64,000 nt of DNA from Pedobacter nutrimenti (GTDB lineage: Bacteria; Bacteroidota; Bacteroidia; Sphingobacteriales; Sphingobacteriaceae). The position numbers and the translations under genes are program-made. Positions 6,925 through 26,405 of the stretch are shown one piece after another (the first letter of the stretch is position 1; each line of letters opens with the position of its first letter). The notes beneath the pieces are model-generated. The model was not told where the DNA came from, made no database searches, and worked only from the letters and a program-made list of their open reading frames with translations. Location of the stretch: contig NZ_QKLU01000005.1 in assembly GCF_003208655.1 (NCBI RefSeq), positions 340,889 through 404,888 on the forward strand. The letters run 5' to 3'.

Positions 6925-7999
6925 AAGTTACAGGGAATTGAATCCGGAGTTGTTTATTGGGATAATTTAAAATTTGCACTTCATAATTGTTGCTGCCATA
7001 CAGTAGGTTAAGTTTATCATAAGTGCTTTGCAGTCCATAACCGATTTCCAGTTCCTCAGGAAAAGGGCTGCCATTGTCCTCAATGATAATCTCCATGAGC
7101 TCGGTTTTTTTGATGCTGATGCGGAGCATTCCATGGGACAGGACATTTTTAAGGCCGTGCTTCAAGGCATTTTCGACCAGGGGCTGGATCAGGAACCTTG
7201 GGATTTTTTCTCTGTTTAAAGCAGGATCAAGGTCTGTTTTGAAGCTGATCCTGTCTCCAAACCGCACTTTTTCAATTTCCAGGTAAGTGTTCACAATTTC
7301 TATTTCTTCAGTAACACTCACCAGGTTTTCCTGGGTCTGATTGATGCTGTAGCGGAACAGTTTCGATAATTTGAGGGTCATACCCTCGGCTTTGTCCGGA
7401 TCTACATGGATCAGACTGGCAATGGCATTCAGGGAATTGTATAAAAAATGCGGATTAATTTTAGAATGCAGTGTGGCCAGTTCTGCTTCGGTTTTCATTT
7501 GATTCAGCCGGAGCAAAGCCAGTTCTTTTTCCTTTATGCGGTTGTTCAAATTGACCTTTTGGGCATTATGAACATACATCACTGTATTCACAATGATCGT
7601 CAAAACACAGCTGAAGAGAAAATCGTCTTTATGAAAAAAAGTATAGGGTGTTTTAAGGACCGCAGCTAAGAGCAGGTAAATGACCTCAATGGCTATAAAT
7701 ACAGCCCCCAGGCTGAAAGCGTAGTAAATCAGGATCTGGACAACACCATTTCCTTTTTTAGCCCAGAATTTTTTGGACAACAACAATCCGTTACAAACAA
7801 AAATAGAAATAATGATTCCAAAAATATAATGAAAAATGGCTTGCCTGGTGCCAATCCACTGTCCTTTAATCAGGGACATCAGAATGACCAATGAGGTCGA
7901 TATGGTCAGGCCAATGGCGAGTCCAACCAGGTTCACCTTTTTCCATTGCTTTAAGCTGATGGGTTTTTCAATGTTCTCAGAGTTCCAGGTATTGAACAT
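6917..7999 (-). CDS. LytS-like membrane histidine kinase
   Basis: 360 residues. Four hydrophobic segments in the first 145 residues (about 22-44, 54-74, 88-114, 126-143) anchor it in the inner membrane. A short coiled coil leads to the His_kinase domain with the phospho-acceptor in KINPHFLYNSLN (H184). The ATPase domain carries the N-box LVENALKHGL and a GYGLQ motif near the end. No periplasmic sensor domain is evident, so the signal is probably sensed in or near the membrane. It is the first gene of a three-gene operon with the regulator and a secreted protein. Confidence 0.9.
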   Translation of the reverse strand: MFNTWNSENIEKPISLKQWKKVNLVGLAIGLTISTSLVILMSLIKGQWIGTRQAIFHYIFGIIISIFVCNGLLLSKKFWAKKGNGVVQILIYYAFSLGAVFIAIEVIYLLLAAVLKTPYTFFHKDDFLFSCVLTIIVNTVMYVHNAQKVNLNNRIKEKELALLRLNQMKTEAELATLHSKINPHFLYNSLNAIASLIHVDPDKAEGMTLKLSKLFRYSINQTQENLVSVTEEIEIVNTYLEIEKVRFGDRISFKTDLDPALNREKIPRFLIQPLVENALKHGLKNVLSHGMLRISIKKTELMEIIIEDNGSPFPEELEIGYGLQSTYDKLNLLYGSNNYEVQILNYPNKQLRIQFPVTYD

Positions 8000-8132
8000 A
8001 GTTAAAGATACTGATTAGTGCTTTTAAAAGGCAAATATGTTACTATACCGTTAACATTACATGTTAATTCTGATGAATTGCAGATACCGGGGTTTGAACG
8101 GTGTAAAATGGAGTGGGGACGGCGGGTACAAA

Positions 8133-17522: not shown

Positions 17523-17557
17523 GTAAGGGTGTGCTGGGAGGCACGCCCTTACTTGTT
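17523..17557 (+). terminator. Terminator of the small heat-shock gene
   Basis: A 12-bp stem (gtaagggtgtgc at 17523-17534 with gcacgcccttac at 17541-17552, one G-T pair), 6-base loop, then ttgttt. Its 3' half is carried again in the downstream duplicated unit, but there the 5' half is changed. Confidence 0.75.
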
Positions 17558-17577: not shown

Positions 17578-17670
17578 AAAAAAAAAGGCTGTCATTGTTC
17601 GAAGATGCGCCTGATTAGGCTCCTTCGGAGCAAACCAGCCAATATCTTCTCACAACGCAGCCATTTTTTT
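17578..17670 (+). repeat. Structured palindromic repeat, copy A
   Basis: Folds as nested stems: an A-run plus ggctg (17587-17591) with cagcc plus T-run (17658-17670); ttgt (17595-17598) with acaa; gaagat (17601-17606) with atcttc (17644-17649). Inside are two small hairpins, gcctgattaggc and gctccttcggagc. It could act as a bidirectional terminator, a structured RNA or a DNA-level palindromic element. Confidence 0.75.
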
Positions 17671-17787
17671 ATAAATCATAACAAGAAATTATGGAACATG
17701 GTAAGGGCTTAGCTGGAGGGGGGATGGTCCGGGCAGGGCGCAGAGAAGGTTATTGTTGGTGTTGGGAGGCACACCCTTACTTGTTTT

Positions 17788-17878
17788 AAAAAAAAGGCTG
17801 TCATTGTTCGAAGATGCGCCTGATTAGGCTCCTTCGGAGCAAACCAGCCAATATCTTCTCACAACGCAGCCTTTTTTT
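17788..17878 (+). repeat. Structured palindromic repeat, copy B
   Basis: Same element as copy A, identical through the whole stem-loop core, offset by about 209 bases as part of the tandem duplication. The outer ggctg (17796-17800) pairs with cagcc (17867-17871). Confidence 0.75.
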
Positions 17879-18130
17879 ATAAATTATTACAAGAAATTAT
17901 CGAACATGGTAAGGGCTTAGCTGGAGGGGGGATGGTCCGGGCAGGGTGCAGAGAAGGTTATTGTTGGTGGGGTATTTGGGAGGTTGGTTAAGGTGAGTTT
18001 TGGTAGGATGCAGAGAGAGTTATGGTTGCTGGGTTGTTTGTGCTTGTGAGCCGAGTTGGTTAAGCATTTGACAAGGGCGATAGGCATGGGGTTAGAATTA
18101 TATGGAAATTTTTTAAGGAATAGAAGGGGT

Positions 18131-18196
18131 GTCTGGAGAGAAATATTGGCTGGGCTGCTCCCCTTCAGGAGCCTGATCAGGCGCATTTCGAAACAG
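18131..18196 (-). repeat. Structured palindromic repeat, copy C (inverted, diverged)
   Basis: On the minus strand this segment carries the same core, atgcgcctgatcaggctcc, but the outer stem has changed on both sides: gaaat (18140-18144) now pairs with atttc (18185-18189), where copy A has gaagat/atcttc. The inner hairpin also keeps its pairing with a different loop. Paired changes show that the fold is kept, not only the sequence. Confidence 0.6.
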
Positions 18197-18313
18197 ATAT
18201 CTCCTTCTATTCCTTTACTTTTAGCTCCTTTTATCCTTCTTGTTCCTTTGCTTTTATACACTTTTTAGCTCCTTGAGTCTGACTTGCATTTCTTTATTTT
18301 GAGCATTCAACAT

Positions 18314-18345
18314 AAAAAAAGGAACCCCTAAAGGTTCCCTTTTTA
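18314..18345 (-). terminator. Terminator of the TonB receptor transcript
   Basis: Stem ggaacc / ggttcc extended by A/T pairs on both sides, 6-base loop, with a T-run on the minus strand. It lies about 20 bases after the stop of the receptor gene. Confidence 0.8.
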
Positions 18346-18363
18346 TTGTATAGGTAGTTGTGT

Positions 18364-21012
18364 TTAAAAGTTAAAGGCAGCAGATAACCTGGCGAACCTG
18401 CCCAGAATTGGACGGGCATAATAAATGGCGCCAGGTGCTGATGTGATCCGCGGGTTGCCTTCGGTTAAACCAATGGTGTTGGTCAGGTTGGAGGCATCGA
18501 TGGCAAAACGCATTTGTTTTACCTTCAGGGAAATGCCTGCGTTTAGGACATCAAAGCTTGGTAAAGCAAAAACGTTGGCGTTGTCGGAATATTTTTTACC
18601 AAAATGATTGACCTCAGCATAAATGCTCAGCGCTTTGGTAATGTTATAGGCCGGGCGGATGGTTCCGTAAAAGCTTGGGATCCGGCGCACTTTATTGCCG
18701 TTGTAATCAAAACCATTTCCAGAGAAATCCCTGAATTTAGGGTCTTGAATGGTGGCATTTACCGTCAGGCTAAAATCGCCGGCATTAAACTGTCCTTCTA
18801 GTTCCAAACCGATGTTTTTGGCTTTGGCAAACTTGTTCTCGGAAGTACCGTCGAGCAGGATGTCTGTAAAGGCGATATTGTCCAGGTTCATGTAAAAAGC
18901 ATTGGCAAAAAAAGCATATTGCTGGCCCTGTAACTTATAACCGAGTTCAAACTGGTTGATGACCGTAGGTTTTAACTTGCTCAGGTCACTGGCATTGTCA
19001 AAATAAGACTCTTCGATCGGAGAACGGAAACCATTGCTGTAACGGAAATAAGTGGCCATATTCTCGTTGAACTTATAATTGGCAGCCGCACTTCCCGATA
19101 AACGGTTAATGTCATATTTCCAGTAATAATAAGGTCCTGAAACGTTGGTGATGGAGTTGTCGGCCGTTGTGCTTCTGAAATCATAACCAAAGCTGCTGTT
19201 GTTGTCCAGATTCTGGGCCGCAGATTGGGTGGCTTTATAGCCGCTGTAGCGGTCCATGTCAAAACGTAAACCAAGGTCAAAGGTCAGGTTATCGGTCGCC
19301 TTAATCTCTGCATTTCCAAACACAGCATTTACATCCCCCTTGGTCTGTGCTTTTCTGGTTAAAAATGAAATATCCGCTACACCATTATAAGTCCTGGAAT
19401 AATTGGCTGCTCCGGGAGCCACAGATTTATCCACCAGGTTCAGCAATTGTGGGTTGTCAGATACGCTGACCAGTAAATTGCTCCAGTTCCATTGCTGGTC
19501 AGAACTCCAGTTGGAGTAGTAATAACCAAGGGAAAGGGTAGTTTTATCATTTTTATAATCGAACCTGAGGTTGTTGGCAAAGTTTTTCATTTGTTTGTCA
19601 ATGGCCCAGTAGCCCACTTTAGCCACCAGTGCCGGGTTTACCACTGCGCCGGTATTTACATCCGTATACTGAGGGTTTAGCACCGGAAAGGATGCGCCCG
19701 CAGAGGTGGTATATCCTTTTGCAAAATCAGCTGCCGTTTGAGGCTCAGCGCCTGGAAATATAGCGGTGTACTGCATATTGATATTGGTGTATCTTATGTT
19801 GTTGCTCACCGAAAAACCACCGCCCAAGTCCGTTTTAAATTCTCCTCCAAATACATCCACAACAGGGTGTACCCCATCTTCCAGGTTTCTGTTGTAGGTG
19901 CCCCCACCCAGTTGCGGAACGCTCAGCTGGCTAAAATTCCGGGAAGTTAAAGTCCCTGTATTTGGATTAAAACCATCGATGCCTTTAGGGTGATCCTTGT
20001 CCGTTAAAGGAATAGGTAAAAGGAATAAGTTTCTGTCATCCAATTTTTTATAAGACAATTTGATGTAACCATTATCCAGGTTGTATTTCAGGTTCATTTT
20101 TATCTGGCCACCATTGTTGCCTTTAAAACCAGGGTTACGTACCCCGTTTTCCGTCCGGTAAAAACCACCAATGTTGTAAAATAATTTATCCGGTACAATG
20201 GCCCCGCCAATGTTCAGGTCTGTTCTGAACAGTCCTGAAGTCCCGGTGCTTAATTTTACCGTTCCGCCAAAATCATTGGTACCCGTTTTGGTAATGAAAT
20301 TGATGATCCCGCCGGGTGCATTGGTGGCGAAAATAGAACCAGAACCGCCTCTTAGGGCTTCCATACGTGAAATGGTTTCATCTACCCGAAGCCAGTTGTC
20401 GGCATTGGCAAACTGTAAGGCCCCATCTTCAAAAACCGGCATGCCATCTTCCTGAATCTGTACATATTCATAAGCACCTGCCGAAGGAATACCCCTTGCA
20501 AATAAGTTGTTGCCCACCTCACCACCAGAAGTTTCTACCACAAAACCTGGTACATGTTTGAGCAGGTCAGCGGCGCTACTTGGTGCAAGCTGTTGTATGG
20601 TTTTACTGCTGAAGCTGGAAATGGCCACACTGGATTCGATTTTTTTCAGTGCATTGGTGGTACCCGTAACCACTACCGCGTTCAGCTCCATTAAATCTTC
20701 CAGCAGGACAATTTTTAAAGCAGAACCACCGATGGGTTGTTCCACAGACTTATAGCCAACGGCACTGATGATCAGTATTTTTCCATCAGGAGTGTTGTTC
20801 AACGCAAATTTACCGGCCTGGTCGGTCGAAGTACCGGTCTTGGTGCCTTTAATGACCACGGTTGCACCCGGAATGGGCTGGTCATTTTTATCGACAACAG
20901 TTCCGGATATGGTTTCCGCTTTTTTCGCATGTACAGGAATAGGATTGCTGTATGCCAGCCCTGCATGGCCGATGATGCAGAGGGATAAAATAAAGAATAA
21001 ATGTCTGTTCAT
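18364..21012 (-). CDS. TonB-dependent outer-membrane receptor, trehalose locus
   Basis: 882 residues. Signal peptide ending GLAYS, then a carboxypeptidase-regulatory-like beta-sandwich (about 33-115, ISGTVVDKNDQPIPGATV), a plug domain (about 125-235, LLKHVPGFVV, RGIPSAGAYEYVQI), and a 22-strand type barrel ending in a terminal Phe (SAAFNF). It imports a ligand across the outer membrane using TonB energy. No SusD-like lipoprotein is next to it, so it is not a SusCD pair. Its neighbours are a trehalase, a sugar permease and an AraC regulator in the same region, so trehalose or a related glucoside is the likely ligand (inference from context). Confidence 0.88.
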   Translation of the reverse strand: MNRHLFFILSLCIIGHAGLAYSNPIPVHAKKAETISGTVVDKNDQPIPGATVVIKGTKTGTSTDQAGKFALNNTPDGKILIISAVGYKSVEQPIGGSALKIVLLEDLMELNAVVVTGTTNALKKIESSVAISSFSSKTIQQLAPSSAADLLKHVPGFVVETSGGEVGNNLFARGIPSAGAYEYVQIQEDGMPVFEDGALQFANADNWLRVDETISRMEALRGGSGSIFATNAPGGIINFITKTGTNDFGGTVKLSTGTSGLFRTDLNIGGAIVPDKLFYNIGGFYRTENGVRNPGFKGNNGGQIKMNLKYNLDNGYIKLSYKKLDDRNLFLLPIPLTDKDHPKGIDGFNPNTGTLTSRNFSQLSVPQLGGGTYNRNLEDGVHPVVDVFGGEFKTDLGGGFSVSNNIRYTNINMQYTAIFPGAEPQTAADFAKGYTTSAGASFPVLNPQYTDVNTGAVVNPALVAKVGYWAIDKQMKNFANNLRFDYKNDKTTLSLGYYYSNWSSDQQWNWSNLLVSVSDNPQLLNLVDKSVAPGAANYSRTYNGVADISFLTRKAQTKGDVNAVFGNAEIKATDNLTFDLGLRFDMDRYSGYKATQSAAQNLDNNSSFGYDFRSTTADNSITNVSGPYYYWKYDINRLSGSAAANYKFNENMATYFRYSNGFRSPIEESYFDNASDLSKLKPTVINQFELGYKLQGQQYAFFANAFYMNLDNIAFTDILLDGTSENKFAKAKNIGLELEGQFNAGDFSLTVNATIQDPKFRDFSGNGFDYNGNKVRRIPSFYGTIRPAYNITKALSIYAEVNHFGKKYSDNANVFALPSFDVLNAGISLKVKQMRFAIDASNLTNTIGLTEGNPRITSAPGAIYYARPILGRFARLSAAFNF

Positions 21013-21084
21013 AATCTGGTTTTTTGTTTATACTGGTTAGTTGTGGTTGATGATGTTTATGTTTTCATGAATTCATTAAAAGAC

Positions 21085-22578
21085 TTATAAGGTTTCACTT
21101 TTCATTTTTAAATACACGCCATTGGTCCAGCCAAAGCCATCCTGGTTCGGATATTCACCCCCTGTTGCAAGCATAGCCGTGTCTTGGACATTGTATTTCT
21201 CGGAAATTTTGCCAGTTTCCTTAAAATGCTGTTCCACCATGGTGGTCCAATTGGTTCTGGTTTTTTCAGCAAGCTCCAGGAAGCCGTAATTTTTAAGACC
21301 CTTAAAAGCAATCCATTGTAAAGGTGCCCAGCCATTTGGTGCGTCCCATTGCTGCCCGGAATGGTTTAAAGTCGTCAGTAAGCCCCCGGCTTTTAAAAAA
21401 TCCTTTTCTATGACCGATGCAAGGGCTTTGGCCTGCGCTGCGCTGGCCATACCGAAGTACAAGGGGTAAGCCATGGCAATGGAAGGAAAATTGGTCTGTT
21501 TTTCTGCCGAATGCTGATAATCGTAATACATTCCCTCTGCTGCAGACCATAAATATTTTTGAATGGCCTGTTCCCGGCTTTCGGCTTGCTCCTCAAATAA
21601 TGCGGCGGTTTTAAAATTTCCGTTTAGCCCTTCTGCTTTTCCGATGGTTTTTTCCAGGTGCCAGAGCAGGCAGTTTAGGTCTATAGGAACGATATCAGTA
21701 GTATGGGCCGTGTTCAGGTTTTTCTGGTCCTTGAACCAGCGGCTGGAAAAGTCCCAACCAGACTCGCAGGCGGCACGGATGTTCAGACAAATGGAAGGGC
21801 CTGAATGGGCCATGGTTTGGGTATCTTCCAAAAAACTCTCCGGTCTTGGGCTGTTGAGCTTGTCGAAATAACGGTTTAACAATTCACCGTCGGGCATAAG
21901 GACCAGGTGCTGGTAATCCCTTTGTTGCCCATGAAGCAATTCCTTGCCATTCATCCAGAAAAGGTATTCCTGGTGTAACTGTGGTAAGTATTTGCTGTAA
22001 GCTGCCCCGCCTGTTTCTATAGCCAGCAGTTCCACCATTAGCGAAAAGAAAGGAGGCTGGGAACGGCTTAGAAAATAGGTTCTGTTGCCGTTAGGAATAA
22101 AGCCAAACTGATCAATCAGATGGGCAAAATTAGCGATCATACTTTTTATAAGATCGCTGCGTCCGGAAACCTGCAGGCCCAGCATGGTGAAATAACTGTC
22201 CCAGTAAAAAAATTCCCTGAACCTTCCTCCCGGAACCACAAAAGGATAGGGAAGGGCAAGCAGCGAACTGTGGTTATCGGTTGCAGTTCTGGTCAAAACA
22301 GACCATAAGGAGCTGATGTGTTCTTCTATGTTTTTGGAAAGATCTGTTTTAAACTGGTTTTGTTCCTGCACGGGAACCTCAAAATGCCGGTTCACAAAAT
22401 CAGCCAGGTTAAAACCGGTCTTTTTATTTTCGATCCTGTATTGTTTCAGAATGTCCGGTACAGGAAATTTCGGGATGCAATCTGCAAAGGTTTTCTGGTC
22501 GGGATACAGCCCGCTGAGCTGTACGTCGGCGAACAGTTCTTCCAGGTTTTCGACAAAAAGGGAAGGGCTATGGTGCAT
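21085..22578 (-). CDS. Trehalase, glycoside hydrolase family 37
   Basis: 497 residues from ATG at 22578. Trehalase signature 1 is PGGRFREFFYWDSY (about 116-129), signature 2 is QWDAPNGWAP, and SGWDFSSRW holds the catalytic acid. The C-terminal SEKYN and GGEYPNQDGFGWTNG are also typical. It hydrolyses trehalose to two glucose molecules. There is no signal peptide from this start, so it acts in the cytosol like E. coli TreF. I chose this start because it overlaps the permease stop by 11 bp; an open frame extends 74 codons further into the permease gene but reads as antisense-like sequence with no family match. Confidence 0.9.
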   Translation of the reverse strand: MHHSPSLFVENLEELFADVQLSGLYPDQKTFADCIPKFPVPDILKQYRIENKKTGFNLADFVNRHFEVPVQEQNQFKTDLSKNIEEHISSLWSVLTRTATDNHSSLLALPYPFVVPGGRFREFFYWDSYFTMLGLQVSGRSDLIKSMIANFAHLIDQFGFIPNGNRTYFLSRSQPPFFSLMVELLAIETGGAAYSKYLPQLHQEYLFWMNGKELLHGQQRDYQHLVLMPDGELLNRYFDKLNSPRPESFLEDTQTMAHSGPSICLNIRAACESGWDFSSRWFKDQKNLNTAHTTDIVPIDLNCLLWHLEKTIGKAEGLNGNFKTAALFEEQAESREQAIQKYLWSAAEGMYYDYQHSAEKQTNFPSIAMAYPLYFGMASAAQAKALASVIEKDFLKAGGLLTTLNHSGQQWDAPNGWAPLQWIAFKGLKNYGFLELAEKTRTNWTTMVEQHFKETGKISEKYNVQDTAMLATGGEYPNQDGFGWTNGVYLKMKSETL

Positions 22579-23818
22579 GGTATATAGATGAGGTCTGATT
22601 GATTTTTTTCGATTTTTTAAACAACAACAAGGCGATGCTGAGCAGAAACAGAGGAACCAGGGAAAAGTAAAACGCACTTTGTCCGCCGTAATGCTGAAAT
22701 ATATAGCCGGTAATAATAGAGCCCAGTGAGCCGCCCAAAGCAGAAAAGACCACAATAAGCCCCGACATGGTACCATGTTGTTTTTTAGGGAGGGCAGCAA
22801 GGATAACAGAGTTAATGGCCGGATAAATCGGTGCCAGGAAAAACCCGATTAAGGGGAATATATAGGCCGAAAATGGAACATCTGCCCAAACTTTAATGAC
22901 ATGCCCTTCTTCGGCTTTGGCCAGGGGCAGGGCAATCAGCACCAATGCTGCTGCGGCCACCAGGCAAACCGTCAGGGTAACATACCAGGAAACTTTTTTA
23001 AGGACCATGCCGGCAAGAAACCGCCCTATAGCCGTGGAGGCTGCCATAATACCCGCCATCAGTACACTAAAGGAAGAAGGTAAATGCAATACCTTATTGT
23101 TAAAGGTGGGCAGCCAGCTCATAATGCTTTGCTCAATCAGCACATATAAAAAAGCGCAGACAACAAAAGAAACCACCAGCGGCAGGACCAGTAAGCGGAA
23201 CATTTCCATAAAGGAGGCCCCTGTATTTTCTTCGGTAGGTTTGGCTGCCGATTCATTGAGCGGGGCAAGGGTTAACAGAAGCAGAGCCAATAGGTATAAA
23301 GCCCCGATAAAATAGTAAATGTGAAACCATCTTCCCGAACTGGCATCGGCATCATCAATAAAATAACTGAAAATGAAATAGCCCAGTAAAATACCCACCA
23401 TGAAGCAGCTTTCAATAAAGTTCATCAGGCTGATGTGTTCCTTTTCGTTTTTGGTGATCAGGCCAATGCTGCCAAATACCGATATTTTGATCAGGGCAAA
23501 ACTGGCCCCTGTGACCGCAAACAAAAGTTTTACAGCGATAAATGTTTTCACCGAAGGGACAATAAAACAGGCCAGGGCTACTGCGGCAAGTCCAATTTGC
23601 ATGGATTTTTTATAGCCGATTCTGGTGATAAAGGAAGCCACCAAAAAGGAAACGACTGCAATGGTGATGTCTTTAAAAGCTTCCAGCACAGATGCGGAAG
23701 ATTCATTGACATGATAATAGCGTTGCACCTGCATGATCACGGTTCCCACGCTATTGAGCATAATCCCAAACAGAAGGTAATTGATAAAGACAGAGATTTT
23801 AATTTTTAAGTTTCCCAT
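22568..23818 (-). CDS. MFS sugar permease
   Basis: 416 residues with about 12 hydrophobic helices in two halves. RIGYKKSMQIG in the first half resembles the MFS loop-2 motif. The layout resembles the fucose/glucose-type MFS group found in Bacteroidota. It probably carries trehalose through the inner membrane by proton symport (inference). Its 3' end overlaps the trehalase start, so import and hydrolysis are translationally coupled. Confidence 0.82.
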   Translation of the reverse strand: MGNLKIKISVFINYLLFGIMLNSVGTVIMQVQRYYHVNESSASVLEAFKDITIAVVSFLVASFITRIGYKKSMQIGLAAVALACFIVPSVKTFIAVKLLFAVTGASFALIKISVFGSIGLITKNEKEHISLMNFIESCFMVGILLGYFIFSYFIDDADASSGRWFHIYYFIGALYLLALLLLTLAPLNESAAKPTEENTGASFMEMFRLLVLPLVVSFVVCAFLYVLIEQSIMSWLPTFNNKVLHLPSSFSVLMAGIMAASTAIGRFLAGMVLKKVSWYVTLTVCLVAAAALVLIALPLAKAEEGHVIKVWADVPFSAYIFPLIGFFLAPIYPAINSVILAALPKKQHGTMSGLIVVFSALGGSLGSIITGYIFQHYGGQSAFYFSLVPLFLLSIALLLFKKSKKINQTSSIYHAP

Positions 23819-23987
23819 TTGTTATACATGATGTTGCTGCTGGTCAAAGCTTATGCTATTAGAGCGGCTTATATTTGGTTTAATAAAATTCAGACTTTCA
23901 AAGCGATAAAAATTATCCTGTATTCATTTTTGATTGAACTATATTAATATAATTATTCATATATTTAATTATTAAGTATTAATAAGG

Positions 23988-24833
23988 ATGAAAGTAGAGT
24001 TTGAAATTGTAAAGCCAGATGAACATTCTTCTTTCCGGTTTCTGTATCAGAACAAAAACACCTGTGAGTTTGTGTGGCAGTATCATTACCATCCGGAATA
24101 CGAGCTGGTCTGTGTGCTTTACGGTGACGGGACCCGTCATGTGGGCAATCACCTGAGTATGTACCAGAACGGCGACCTGGTGCTCATCGGCTCCAATATG
24201 CCGCATTCTGGCTTTGGATTGAACGCTACAGATCCTCACGAGGAAATCGTTGTCCAAATCAGGCCCGAGGTCATGAAACAATGGATTTCTGATTTTCCGG
24301 AAATGAAGGAGGTCGCCTTGTTGATGGAGCGTTCCAGGCATGGGATTAAGTTTGAAGGGAAAACCAAAAAGGAAGTTACAAAAATGCTCATTGGACTAAA
24401 AAACGTTTCGGCTTTTGAAAAACACCTGGGTATGCTGAAGGTGCTCCATAAACTCGGTGGAAGCGAAGAATATGTGATGCTCAATGAACAACCTATTCTG
24501 GGTGAGCTGATCCGTAAACACCGCTCCAGGCTCCAGAAAATTTTTACTTATGTAGAGAATTACTATCAGGAAGATATAGACATTCAGAAAGTAGCAGATA
24601 TCGCAAACATCTCTGTGCCTTCCTTTTGTAATTACTTTAAAAAAATGACGCACATTACCTATACCGAATTTGTAAACCGTTACCGGATCCAGAAAGCCTG
24701 TATGCTTTTGCAGCAAGACAAAACCATTTCGGAGGTTTGTTTCGAATGCGGTTTTAATAATGTGACCTACTTCAATAAGATATTTAAACGGATTGTTCAT
24801 AAAACCCCTTCCGATTTCAGGGTTGATAAATAG
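23988..24833 (+). CDS. AraC-family transcriptional regulator
   Basis: 281 residues. N-terminal cupin sensor (WQYHYHPEYELVCVL, GDLVLIGSNMPHSG), C-terminal double helix-turn-helix at about 185-280 (IQKVADIANISVPSFCNYFKK and ISEVCFECGFNNVTYFNKIFK). It lies divergent from the permease-trehalase-receptor group with 169 bases between start codons, so it is the likely activator of that group, with trehalose or a derivative as inducer (inference). A TAnnTTTG sequence (tatatttg, 23880-23887) in the spacer could be its own -7 box. Confidence 0.87.
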   Translation: MKVEFEIVKPDEHSSFRFLYQNKNTCEFVWQYHYHPEYELVCVLYGDGTRHVGNHLSMYQNGDLVLIGSNMPHSGFGLNATDPHEEIVVQIRPEVMKQWISDFPEMKEVALLMERSRHGIKFEGKTKKEVTKMLIGLKNVSAFEKHLGMLKVLHKLGGSEEYVMLNEQPILGELIRKHRSRLQKIFTYVENYYQEDIDIQKVADIANISVPSFCNYFKKMTHITYTEFVNRYRIQKACMLLQQDKTISEVCFECGFNNVTYFNKIFKRIVHKTPSDFRVDK

Positions 24834-24846
24834 AATAAACCAGGTT

Positions 24847-24900
24847 TAAGATGCGCCCGCTCAGGCTCCCGCAGAGCGGTCCAGACAATATCACTTTCTG
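24847..24900 (+). repeat. Structured palindromic repeat, copy D (diverged)
   Basis: Shares the core aagatgcgcc...caggctcc...gagc...ccag.caatatc with copies A-C. The inner hairpin is kept as gctc ccgca gagc with a different loop. The outer stem is mostly lost. It lies just after the AraC gene, so repeat copies stand on both sides of the trehalose locus. Confidence 0.55.
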
Positions 24901-24962
24901 AACCCCTAAAACGGGATTGAAAAATTATACTCCGGTAAGACATATTGCCAAATTGCTCGGCA

Positions 24963-24990
24963 CAAAAAAAAGGTGCCTTCCTGGCACCTT
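24963..24990 (-). terminator. Terminator of the arginine decarboxylase-like gene
   Basis: Stem aaggtgcc / ggcacctt (24970-24977 with 24983-24990), 5-base loop; the A-run at 24963-24971 gives a T-run on the minus strand. Confidence 0.85.
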
Positions 24991-25013
24991 CAATTATTTT
25001 AGTGGGTTTAATC

Positions 25014-26405
25014 CTAGGTATAACCCAGAATTTTTAAAACCTGTTTGCTGTTTTGTTCCTCGCCGAAAACCTCAAAGTTAAAAGTTTCGTCACGGTTTCT
25101 GCGGATAATCACATGTTTAGGGCTAGGGAGCAGGCAGTGGTGAATACCACCATAACCGCTCAATACTTCCTGGTAAGCTCCGGTATGGAAAAAACCAAGG
25201 TATTGTACTTTACGCGTTTTAGGCATAAATACACTGTTCATGTGTGCTTCCTGGTTGTAGTAATCCTGGCCATCGCAAGTGATCCCGCCAAGGTTCACTT
25301 TTTCATATTCTGCATCCCAGTTGTTGATCGGTAACAGCACATATTTCTGGTTTAAAGCCCATACATCCGGAAGGTTGGTAATGAAAGAACCGTCCAGCAT
25401 CAGCCATCTTTCCCGGTCGTTTTGCTGTTTGCGGCCCAATACCTTGTATAAAATACCAGAAGCTTCCGCTACCGTGTATTTACCAAATTCAGTAATAATG
25501 TCTGGTTCGATTACATCGTGCTCAGCGCAAATTTCCTTGATCCTTTTTACAATTTCGTTCACCATGTATTCATAGTCGAAATCGAAAACCAGGGAATCTT
25601 TAAAAGGCATACCACCACCAATATCCAGGGTATCCAGTTCAGGATTGATCTTTTTGAATTTGCAGTAAAGGGTTACATATTTTTCCAGCTCGTTCCAGTA
25701 ATAAGGCGTATCCGAAATACCCGAGTTGATGAAAAAGTGGAGCAGCTTTACACGAAAATTCGGATTGGCCGCAATTTTACTGTTGTAAAAATCGATGACA
25801 TCTTCCAGTCTTACGCCCAAACGGGAGGTATAGAACTGAGAGTCCGGCTGCTCTTCAGCCGCAATACGGATACCTAAATTACAAGGGGTATCCATTTCGA
25901 TCTCATCATCGTAAAGATTAAATTCTTCTTTATTGTCCAGTACAGGAATGATGTTTTTATAACCATCATGTAGCATATCAATAATATACTGTTTGTACTG
26001 GTAGGTTTTAAAACCGTTACAGATCAGCGTAATGTCTTTGGTTAAGGCGCCTTTTTTTTCCAGGGCGTCTACCATAGGCATGTCAAATGCAGAAGAGGTT
26101 TCCAGGTGAATGCCATTTTTCAAAGCCTCTTCCACAATATGACGGAAGTGGGAGCTTTTGGTGCAATAGCAATACTTGTAATCACCCCTGTAATTGTTCT
26201 TCAGAATGGCCGTCTGGAACAAGATCTTGGCCTGCTGAATTTTTTTGCTGATCATTGGAAGATACGTGAAACGTAATGGCGTACCATAAGTCTCGATCAT
26301 TTCCATTAAGTTTAGGTCCTGGAAGTACAATTCATCATCTATTATGTCATAACCTTCCTGAGGAAAACCAACACTTAGATCAAGAAATTCGGAGTAACTC
26401 TGCAT
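25014..26405 (-). CDS. SpeA-like arginine decarboxylase (short Bacteroidota form)
   Basis: 463 residues, fold-type III PLP decarboxylase. The PLP Lys is in YKYCYCTKSSHF (K83); the alanine-racemase-like barrel is followed by the glycine-rich LDIGGGMPF and a C-terminal beta domain ending in GGIHHCLLPSPKHVI. Classical SpeA proteins are about 630-660 residues; this one lacks the extra helical and insert segments. The family makes agmatine from arginine for polyamine synthesis. An arginase-family gene is divergent from it, which fits arginine or agmatine metabolism. Substrate remains unproven. Confidence 0.8.
   Translation of the reverse strand: MQSYSEFLDLSVGFPQEGYDIIDDELYFQDLNLMEMIETYGTPLRFTYLPMISKKIQQAKILFQTAILKNNYRGDYKYCYCTKSSHFRHIVEEALKNGIHLETSSAFDMPMVDALEKKGALTKDITLICNGFKTYQYKQYIIDMLHDGYKNIIPVLDNKEEFNLYDDEIEMDTPCNLGIRIAAEEQPDSQFYTSRLGVRLEDVIDFYNSKIAANPNFRVKLLHFFINSGISDTPYYWNELEKYVTLYCKFKKINPELDTLDIGGGMPFKDSLVFDFDYEYMVNEIVKRIKEICAEHDVIEPDIITEFGKYTVAEASGILYKVLGRKQQNDRERWLMLDGSFITNLPDVWALNQKYVLLPINNWDAEYEKVNLGGITCDGQDYYNQEAHMNSVFMPKTRKVQYLGFFHTGAYQEVLSGYGGIHHCLLPSPKHVIIRRNRDETFNFEVFGEEQNSKQVLKILGYT

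Follow-up and report, generated by a model that had tools for sequence, protein, structure and literature searches.

The window, a 64,000-nucleotide stretch of the Pedobacter nutrimenti genome, contains members of a hairpin family which is real, recurs in multiple genomes and covaries strongly. It is new as a family, and in kind it is a variant of the REP-like palindrome. The explanation that we prefer, with confidence just short of even, is that these are lineage-specific modular hairpins located at the ends of transcription units, in which the arms would terminate transcription and the core would spread as a passenger. Whole hairpins occupy positions 17578..17672 (copy 1) and 17787..17879 (copy 2), both on the + strand. 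Copy 3 (18115..18216), likewise a whole hairpin, lies on the − strand and faces the first two, and a diverged copy 4 is located at 24843..24904 on the + strand. They were the only matches in the window in a search with R1, a covariance model built from nine copies, partly those of the window and five from elsewhere in the genome. The matches extend over 17590-17662 (E 2e-20), 17799-17871, 18127-18201 and 24836-24907, with E values from 2e-20 to 5.5e-14; copies 1-3 were additionally assigned by their fold. The initial annotation, which proposed at least four copies, was thus correct about the presence and place of all four. Copies 1 and 2 form a tandem repeat (17579-17969, period 208 bp, 97% match), which is a recent tandem duplication and leaves the window with three independent copies.

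Copies 1-3 are placed between two convergent genes, an HSP20 gene (PF00011; 17067..17498, + strand) on the left and a TonB-dependent receptor gene (PF00593; 18364..21012, − strand) on the right. The HSP20 gene has a simple terminator-like hairpin at 17523..17552 on the + strand, upstream of copy 1, and the receptor gene has its own between the gene and copy 3. A 33-bp tandem repeat in two copies (18202-18265) adjoins copy 3. Copy 4 adjoins the stop codon of an AraC-type regulator gene (PF12833; 23988..24833, + strand), and its R1 match starts 3 nt past the stop of this upstream gene of the same direction. Its convergent neighbour, a decarboxylase gene (PF02784; 25014..26405, − strand), has its own terminator-like hairpin, and no simple terminator was found on the + strand from 24833 to 25014, where the AraC-type gene ends. 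Within the window, the position of a terminator is occupied by copy 4 only.

A scan for further copies, proposed in the initial annotation, was positive. In the P. nutrimenti genome, model R2 gave 20 matches at E ≤ 0.05, two of which break off just past the apical hairpin on its 3′ side (G000:C10:71823, L023; G000:C8:309662, L058). The matches lie at about 14 places, some less than 15 kb apart, and this clustering had a simulated p of 0.00065. Model R1 detected the family in 4 of 145 genomes and R2 in 4 of 41 relatives. With the refined model R3, it was found, patchily, in 27 of 144 Pedobacter genomes and, across the family Sphingobacteriaceae, in 19 of 399 genomes and 3 of 25 genera (Pedobacter and two further ones). 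Wherever more than 40 genomes were searched, the filters were strict and few candidates were scored per genome, so these genome counts are lower bounds. The number of detected copies per genome was at most about 20. One of the two further genera (G413) rests on a doubtful match, L210, since its fold is unlike that of the family. In the genome G206, from another genus, copies with the same core motif alternate in regular arrays, at intervals of about 300 bp. A GTDB-wide pattern scan returned 16 stretches, of which only L037 (Pedobacter sp. HMWF019) has the fold of the family. In the same strain, at L066 (3075-3270), the 5′ half of the hairpin is tandemly repeated and fused to other sequence. 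The single stretch found in a viral pattern scan is not a family member, a class-level match in G151 (E 0.0096) was dropped for its poor fold, and the plasmid and phage collections searched contained no match to the family. Rfam gave 0 matches in nine loci and none at the gathering score in the window stretch. Our literature searches on palindromic repeats of Pedobacter and Sphingobacteriaceae gave no description of them, a related search gave general papers only, and the portion of the RepRanger article considered here (PMC12306157) mentions Bacteroidota only through other genera. The suggestion that such elements had not been described therefore agrees with Rfam and with the literature searched.

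The hairpin measures about 100 bp in total. From the outside in, it consists of stem P1, with an A-rich 5′ side and a T-rich 3′ side, a one-base mismatch or bulge, stem P2, a 3x3 internal loop (TTC/TCT on the reference strand), a variable stem P3 of 5-6 bp, and a core composed of conserved internal loops and motifs with an apical hairpin. The changes on both sides of the outer stem that the initial annotation pointed out (gaagat/atcttc against gaaat/atttc) are present in the sequence, and its statement that pairing is maintained while sequence changes was borne out far beyond chance. In 32 copies (31 distinct), 90.5% of the cells were paired and double changes occurred in 18 of 19 pairs; for four of the five measures, none of 500 shuffles reached the observed covariation. 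When, as a control, the partners were slid by 1-3 columns, pairing was 37-45%. The 115 matches (111 distinct) gave 431 double-change cells vs 108.6 in shuffles, a value reached in 0 of 500 shuffles. Further counts were made on a set of 133 copies, which comprises the 115 matches minus 13 of G206 and one of G413, plus 32 copies from the own genome, G086 and G128. It includes both tandem copies of the window and omits the broken L023 and L058. A 3′ tail motif of the GCAGGRTG type is present in 33 of the 133 copies (expected 1.0) and was never mirrored on the 5′ side. Degenerate short tandem repeats were seen beside some hairpins, in L202 at about 7910-8070, 5′ of the copy that spans 7838-7909, and in L172 at about 2605-2900. 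Their units, like AGCAGGATTG or TTTTTTTTGCAGGATAG, resemble the tail motif.

Almost all copies (131 of 133) are extragenic and two lie inside an ORF call, with genes called by a simple longest-ORF script and not by a trained caller. The 131 classified copies comprise 77 in convergent, 44 in tandem and 10 in divergent regions. For intergenic gaps without a copy in these loci, the numbers were 8, 26 and 30, respectively (chi-square p 1.9e-12). Where an upstream gene runs in the same direction (106 copies), 52 copies begin within 30 nt past its stop, the median being 31 nt; hairpins that start directly at a stop codon were seen in many species, and at L163 the stop codon is inside P1. The median distance from the hairpin to the opposite gene 3′ of it is 181 nt. 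Of 26 adjacent pairs, 22 are arranged with the 3′ ends towards each other, including 4 in tandem regions, and none is back-to-back. An apparent sense bias (20 of 23 copies along the upstream gene) was discarded, as it follows from convergent placement. Every convergent copy counts as sense, so only tandem regions inform on orientation, and these gave 27 sense vs 17 antisense copies (p 0.17), which is no significant bias. Checking the positions relative to genes thus showed that the copies sit where transcription units end, in most cases in the gap between convergent genes. The P. nutrimenti genome is looser in this respect, with stop-to-copy distances from 3 to 301 nt. In 8 of its 10 copies located more than 60 nt past a stop in the same direction, a simple terminator lies in between, and there the hairpin is consequently not the terminator of the gene.

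In several cases the same gene, named by Pfam, ends with the hairpin in different species. These are valyl-tRNA synthetase (4 genomes), pirin (4 genomes) and an ispF-type (YgbB) gene (3 genomes), and there are further shared sites. For pirin, 30 loci were compared, one per species, and the hairpin directly follows the stop codon in 10 of them. Seven of the ten were called by R3, and those of G038, G052 and G128 by reading the arms and the fold. The ten hairpins have nearly the same arms and several different cores. A simple terminator was found in 15 of the 20 species without the hairpin, G069 and G012 being counted among them, and in 1 of the 10 with it, where it is located inside the hairpin's own 3′ arm (Fisher p 0.0014). 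In G012, the site has the same arms and no core, which makes it a plain terminator. At the pirin gene, the single gene compared in this way, the hairpin thus occupies the place of a plain intrinsic terminator. A run of TTTTT near the 3′ foot occurs in only 71 of 133 copies. A second terminator within 150 nt 3′ of near-stop copies was present in 13 of 74 cases vs 9 of 93 control gene ends. The earlier proposal of a transcription-stop element is therefore upheld at the pirin site and does not hold for most P. nutrimenti copies. At another locus (L202, L203 and L205 in G008, G126 and G088), a tandemly duplicated gene pair, which we take to be TldD/TldE-like, encodes products of 438-546 aa, and each gene copy keeps the same hairpin past its stop codon. 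Across the three species, the hairpins of this locus are nearly unchanged, whereas their flanks can no longer be aligned; compensatory changes were observed at site C.

The arms and the core differ in their patterns of sequence identity. In 36 orthologous pairs from species that are not closely related, identity was 0.72 in the arms, where the final stretch of the coding sequence contributes to the likeness, and 0.56 in the core; in 8027 unrelated pairs, the values were 0.52 and 0.51. The order was reversed within the P. nutrimenti genome, with 0.65 in the core and 0.49 in the arms, a core likeness that may be inflated because the models derive mainly from cores of the own genome, G086 and G128. 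All same-genome pairs together (n = 694) showed a small contrast, 0.60 in the core vs 0.56 in the arms. These data support the conclusion that the outer arms follow the locus and that cores are exchanged between loci. A related reading, which we regard as possible and somewhat doubtful, is that the core is a selfish palindrome inside terminators. The outer stem would stay with its host gene, and within a genome the core would be copied from terminator to terminator without a transposase, either through gene conversion set off by the hairpin or through template switching. Conserved sites would then carry cores that change in concert and are specific to each genome.

A REP/BIME-like selfish palindrome, mobilized by a transposase, unknown or since lost, that acts on the folded strand, and tolerated at gene ends as harmless insertion places, is an unlikely explanation, even if much of the behaviour of the family agrees with it. 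The hairpins are extragenic, biased towards convergent regions, tandemly duplicated and arranged in facing pairs; their presence among genomes is patchy, and their loci in P. nutrimenti are clustered. At the trxB site, a copy is present only in the P. nutrimenti genome, where a plain terminator precedes it, and absent in 29 of 30 loci. Moreover, the portion of PMC6006769 considered here describes Bacteroidetes RAYTs of subclass 2.6, flanked by atypical hairpins that have copies elsewhere in the genome. However, no REP-associated transposase, of the kind the initial annotation had in mind, was found in the Pedobacter carriers searched. Profile PF01797 (Y1_Tnp) gave 0 matches in the P. nutrimenti genome and 0 in four other carriers, and NF047646 (RAYT), applied to 11 Pedobacter carriers, gave none at E ≤ 0.01 (the lowest E being 0.034), in searches that could miss a very divergent member. 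In the case of G206, three loci (L241, L248 and L250) are RAYT copies by NF047646, degenerate and interrupted by in-frame stops, but their 1.5-kb flanks contain no family hairpin (R3 ≤ 7.9 bits). Over eight loci, R3 reached at best 9.8 bits, at L244, a locus at which the RAYT match itself lacks significance (E 0.147), and no repeats common to RAYT loci and hairpin arrays were detected. In the 133 copies, foot tags were rarer than in shuffles, GT[AG]G being counted 14 (expected 25.4) and 7 (13.9) times and CGTC 1 (2.8) and 3 (11.6) times. The retention of orthologous sites across species, beside the same stop codon, is a further argument against such an element. The designation as REP type is thus apt for the behaviour of the hairpins and not for their membership.

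It is improbable that the family represents a one-strand structured RNA, a 3′-UTR element or small RNA whose conserved internal loops would bind a protein. These loops and the core motifs, the strong covariation and the position right past stop codons would suit it, and so would the unequal folding of the strands. Of the 133 copies, 92 fold better on the strand opposite to the adjacent gene and 40 on the reference strand; the advantage of the opposite strand is on average absent in G025, G038, G069 and G128. The types of mismatch indicate otherwise. Among 1962 paired cells, non-Watson-Crick cells were few, with 33 G-U vs 40 A-C, and in the arms alone, aligned with both types treated alike, there were 13 G-U vs 42 A-C. 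The control SRP RNA of the same genus (17 distinct sequences) gave 50 G-U vs 0 A-C in pairs chosen with RNAalifold, a program biased towards G-U; simple terminators gave 11 vs 4. Since G-U is not in excess over A-C, the pairing of the hairpin is not kept as in a one-strand RNA. The distant P. nutrimenti copies located beyond a terminator are also contrary to this explanation. Consequently, the non-coding RNA offered in the initial annotation was not sustained in the one-strand sense. A need for pairing in both strands, or renewal by template switching, fits the data better.

Such renewal on its own, that is, unselected palindromes kept by template switching during replication, in which one arm is copied onto the other and mimics a compensatory change, is very improbable. 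The mechanism is described in PMC8794818, in the portion considered here. The changes found lead from one Watson-Crick pair to another with few G-U or A-C intermediates, which speaks for it. Three copies (L132 and L134 of G032, and L056 of G086) have arms perfectly paired through the usual internal loop, which is also in its favour. However, the 3x3 loop, the core loops and the one-base mismatch between P1 and P2 persist genus-wide, although erasure would be expected, and the hairpins of the duplicated gene pair remained nearly unchanged while their flanks diverged. Some BIMEs have been proposed as binding places for gyrase or a nucleoid protein, and a comparable DNA-structure site between convergent genes, such as a cruciform, would agree with the convergent placement and with mismatches tolerated symmetrically between strands, yet abutment to stop codons is not expected of it, and we give it hardly any probability.

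In the preferred reading of modular hairpins at transcription-unit ends, the arms would act as a transcription terminator, probably in both directions. Two-way termination would account for the equal tolerance of G-U and A-C and for the preference for convergent genes. A one-direction terminator is disfavoured by the better folding of the opposite strand, which is the reverse of what that role needs. The lack of a significant orientation bias in tandem regions, the terminators that precede distant P. nutrimenti copies and the T-run in only 71 of 133 copies also weigh against the reading. The core would be a palindromic passenger that spreads between hairpins through gene conversion or through template switching during replication. 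New intergenic sites may now and then receive a whole hairpin, for example in the P. nutrimenti genome, where a normal terminator precedes most of the distant copies. If true, this would mean that bacterial repeats ride in transcription terminators and swap their inner part without a known transposase, and it would explain the joint change of both strands in long hairpins. The family would then be a natural test case for template switching vs selection, and it would represent a class of Bacteroidota gene-end elements missed by Rfam and by REP searches based on the GTAG tag.

Among known systems, integron attC sites are similar in combining variable sequence with a conserved hairpin shape. Their box consensus is RYYYAAC...GTTRRRY, and the difference is that this box pair was found at the stem base in 0 of 133 copies. 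The likeness to REPs and BIMEs is broader, as both are extragenic palindromes that occur as singles, inverted dimers or clusters and are enriched at 3′ ends as well as in the gaps that separate convergent genes. According to the portion of PMC3733652 considered here, REPs are 20-40 bp long. Unlike them, the Pedobacter hairpins reach about 100 bp, have internal loops and an exchangeable core, carry no GTAG/CGTC tag, gave no RAYT match in the 11 carriers searched and do not exceed about 20 detected copies per genome. The hairpins of RAYT subclass 2.6 (RAYT group 5), compared here by their description in part of PMC6006769, share the phylum with them and are likewise multi-copy hairpins without GT[AG]G; they flank the transposase gene, whereas the Pedobacter ones do not at the loci checked. 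Finally, the family resembles intrinsic terminators in its location just past the stop codon, its A-tract/T-tract foot and its exclusion of the plain terminator at pirin. It differs from them in that a T-run is present in only about half of the copies, and in that the hairpins are much longer, have conserved internal loops and contain a core common to unrelated genes.
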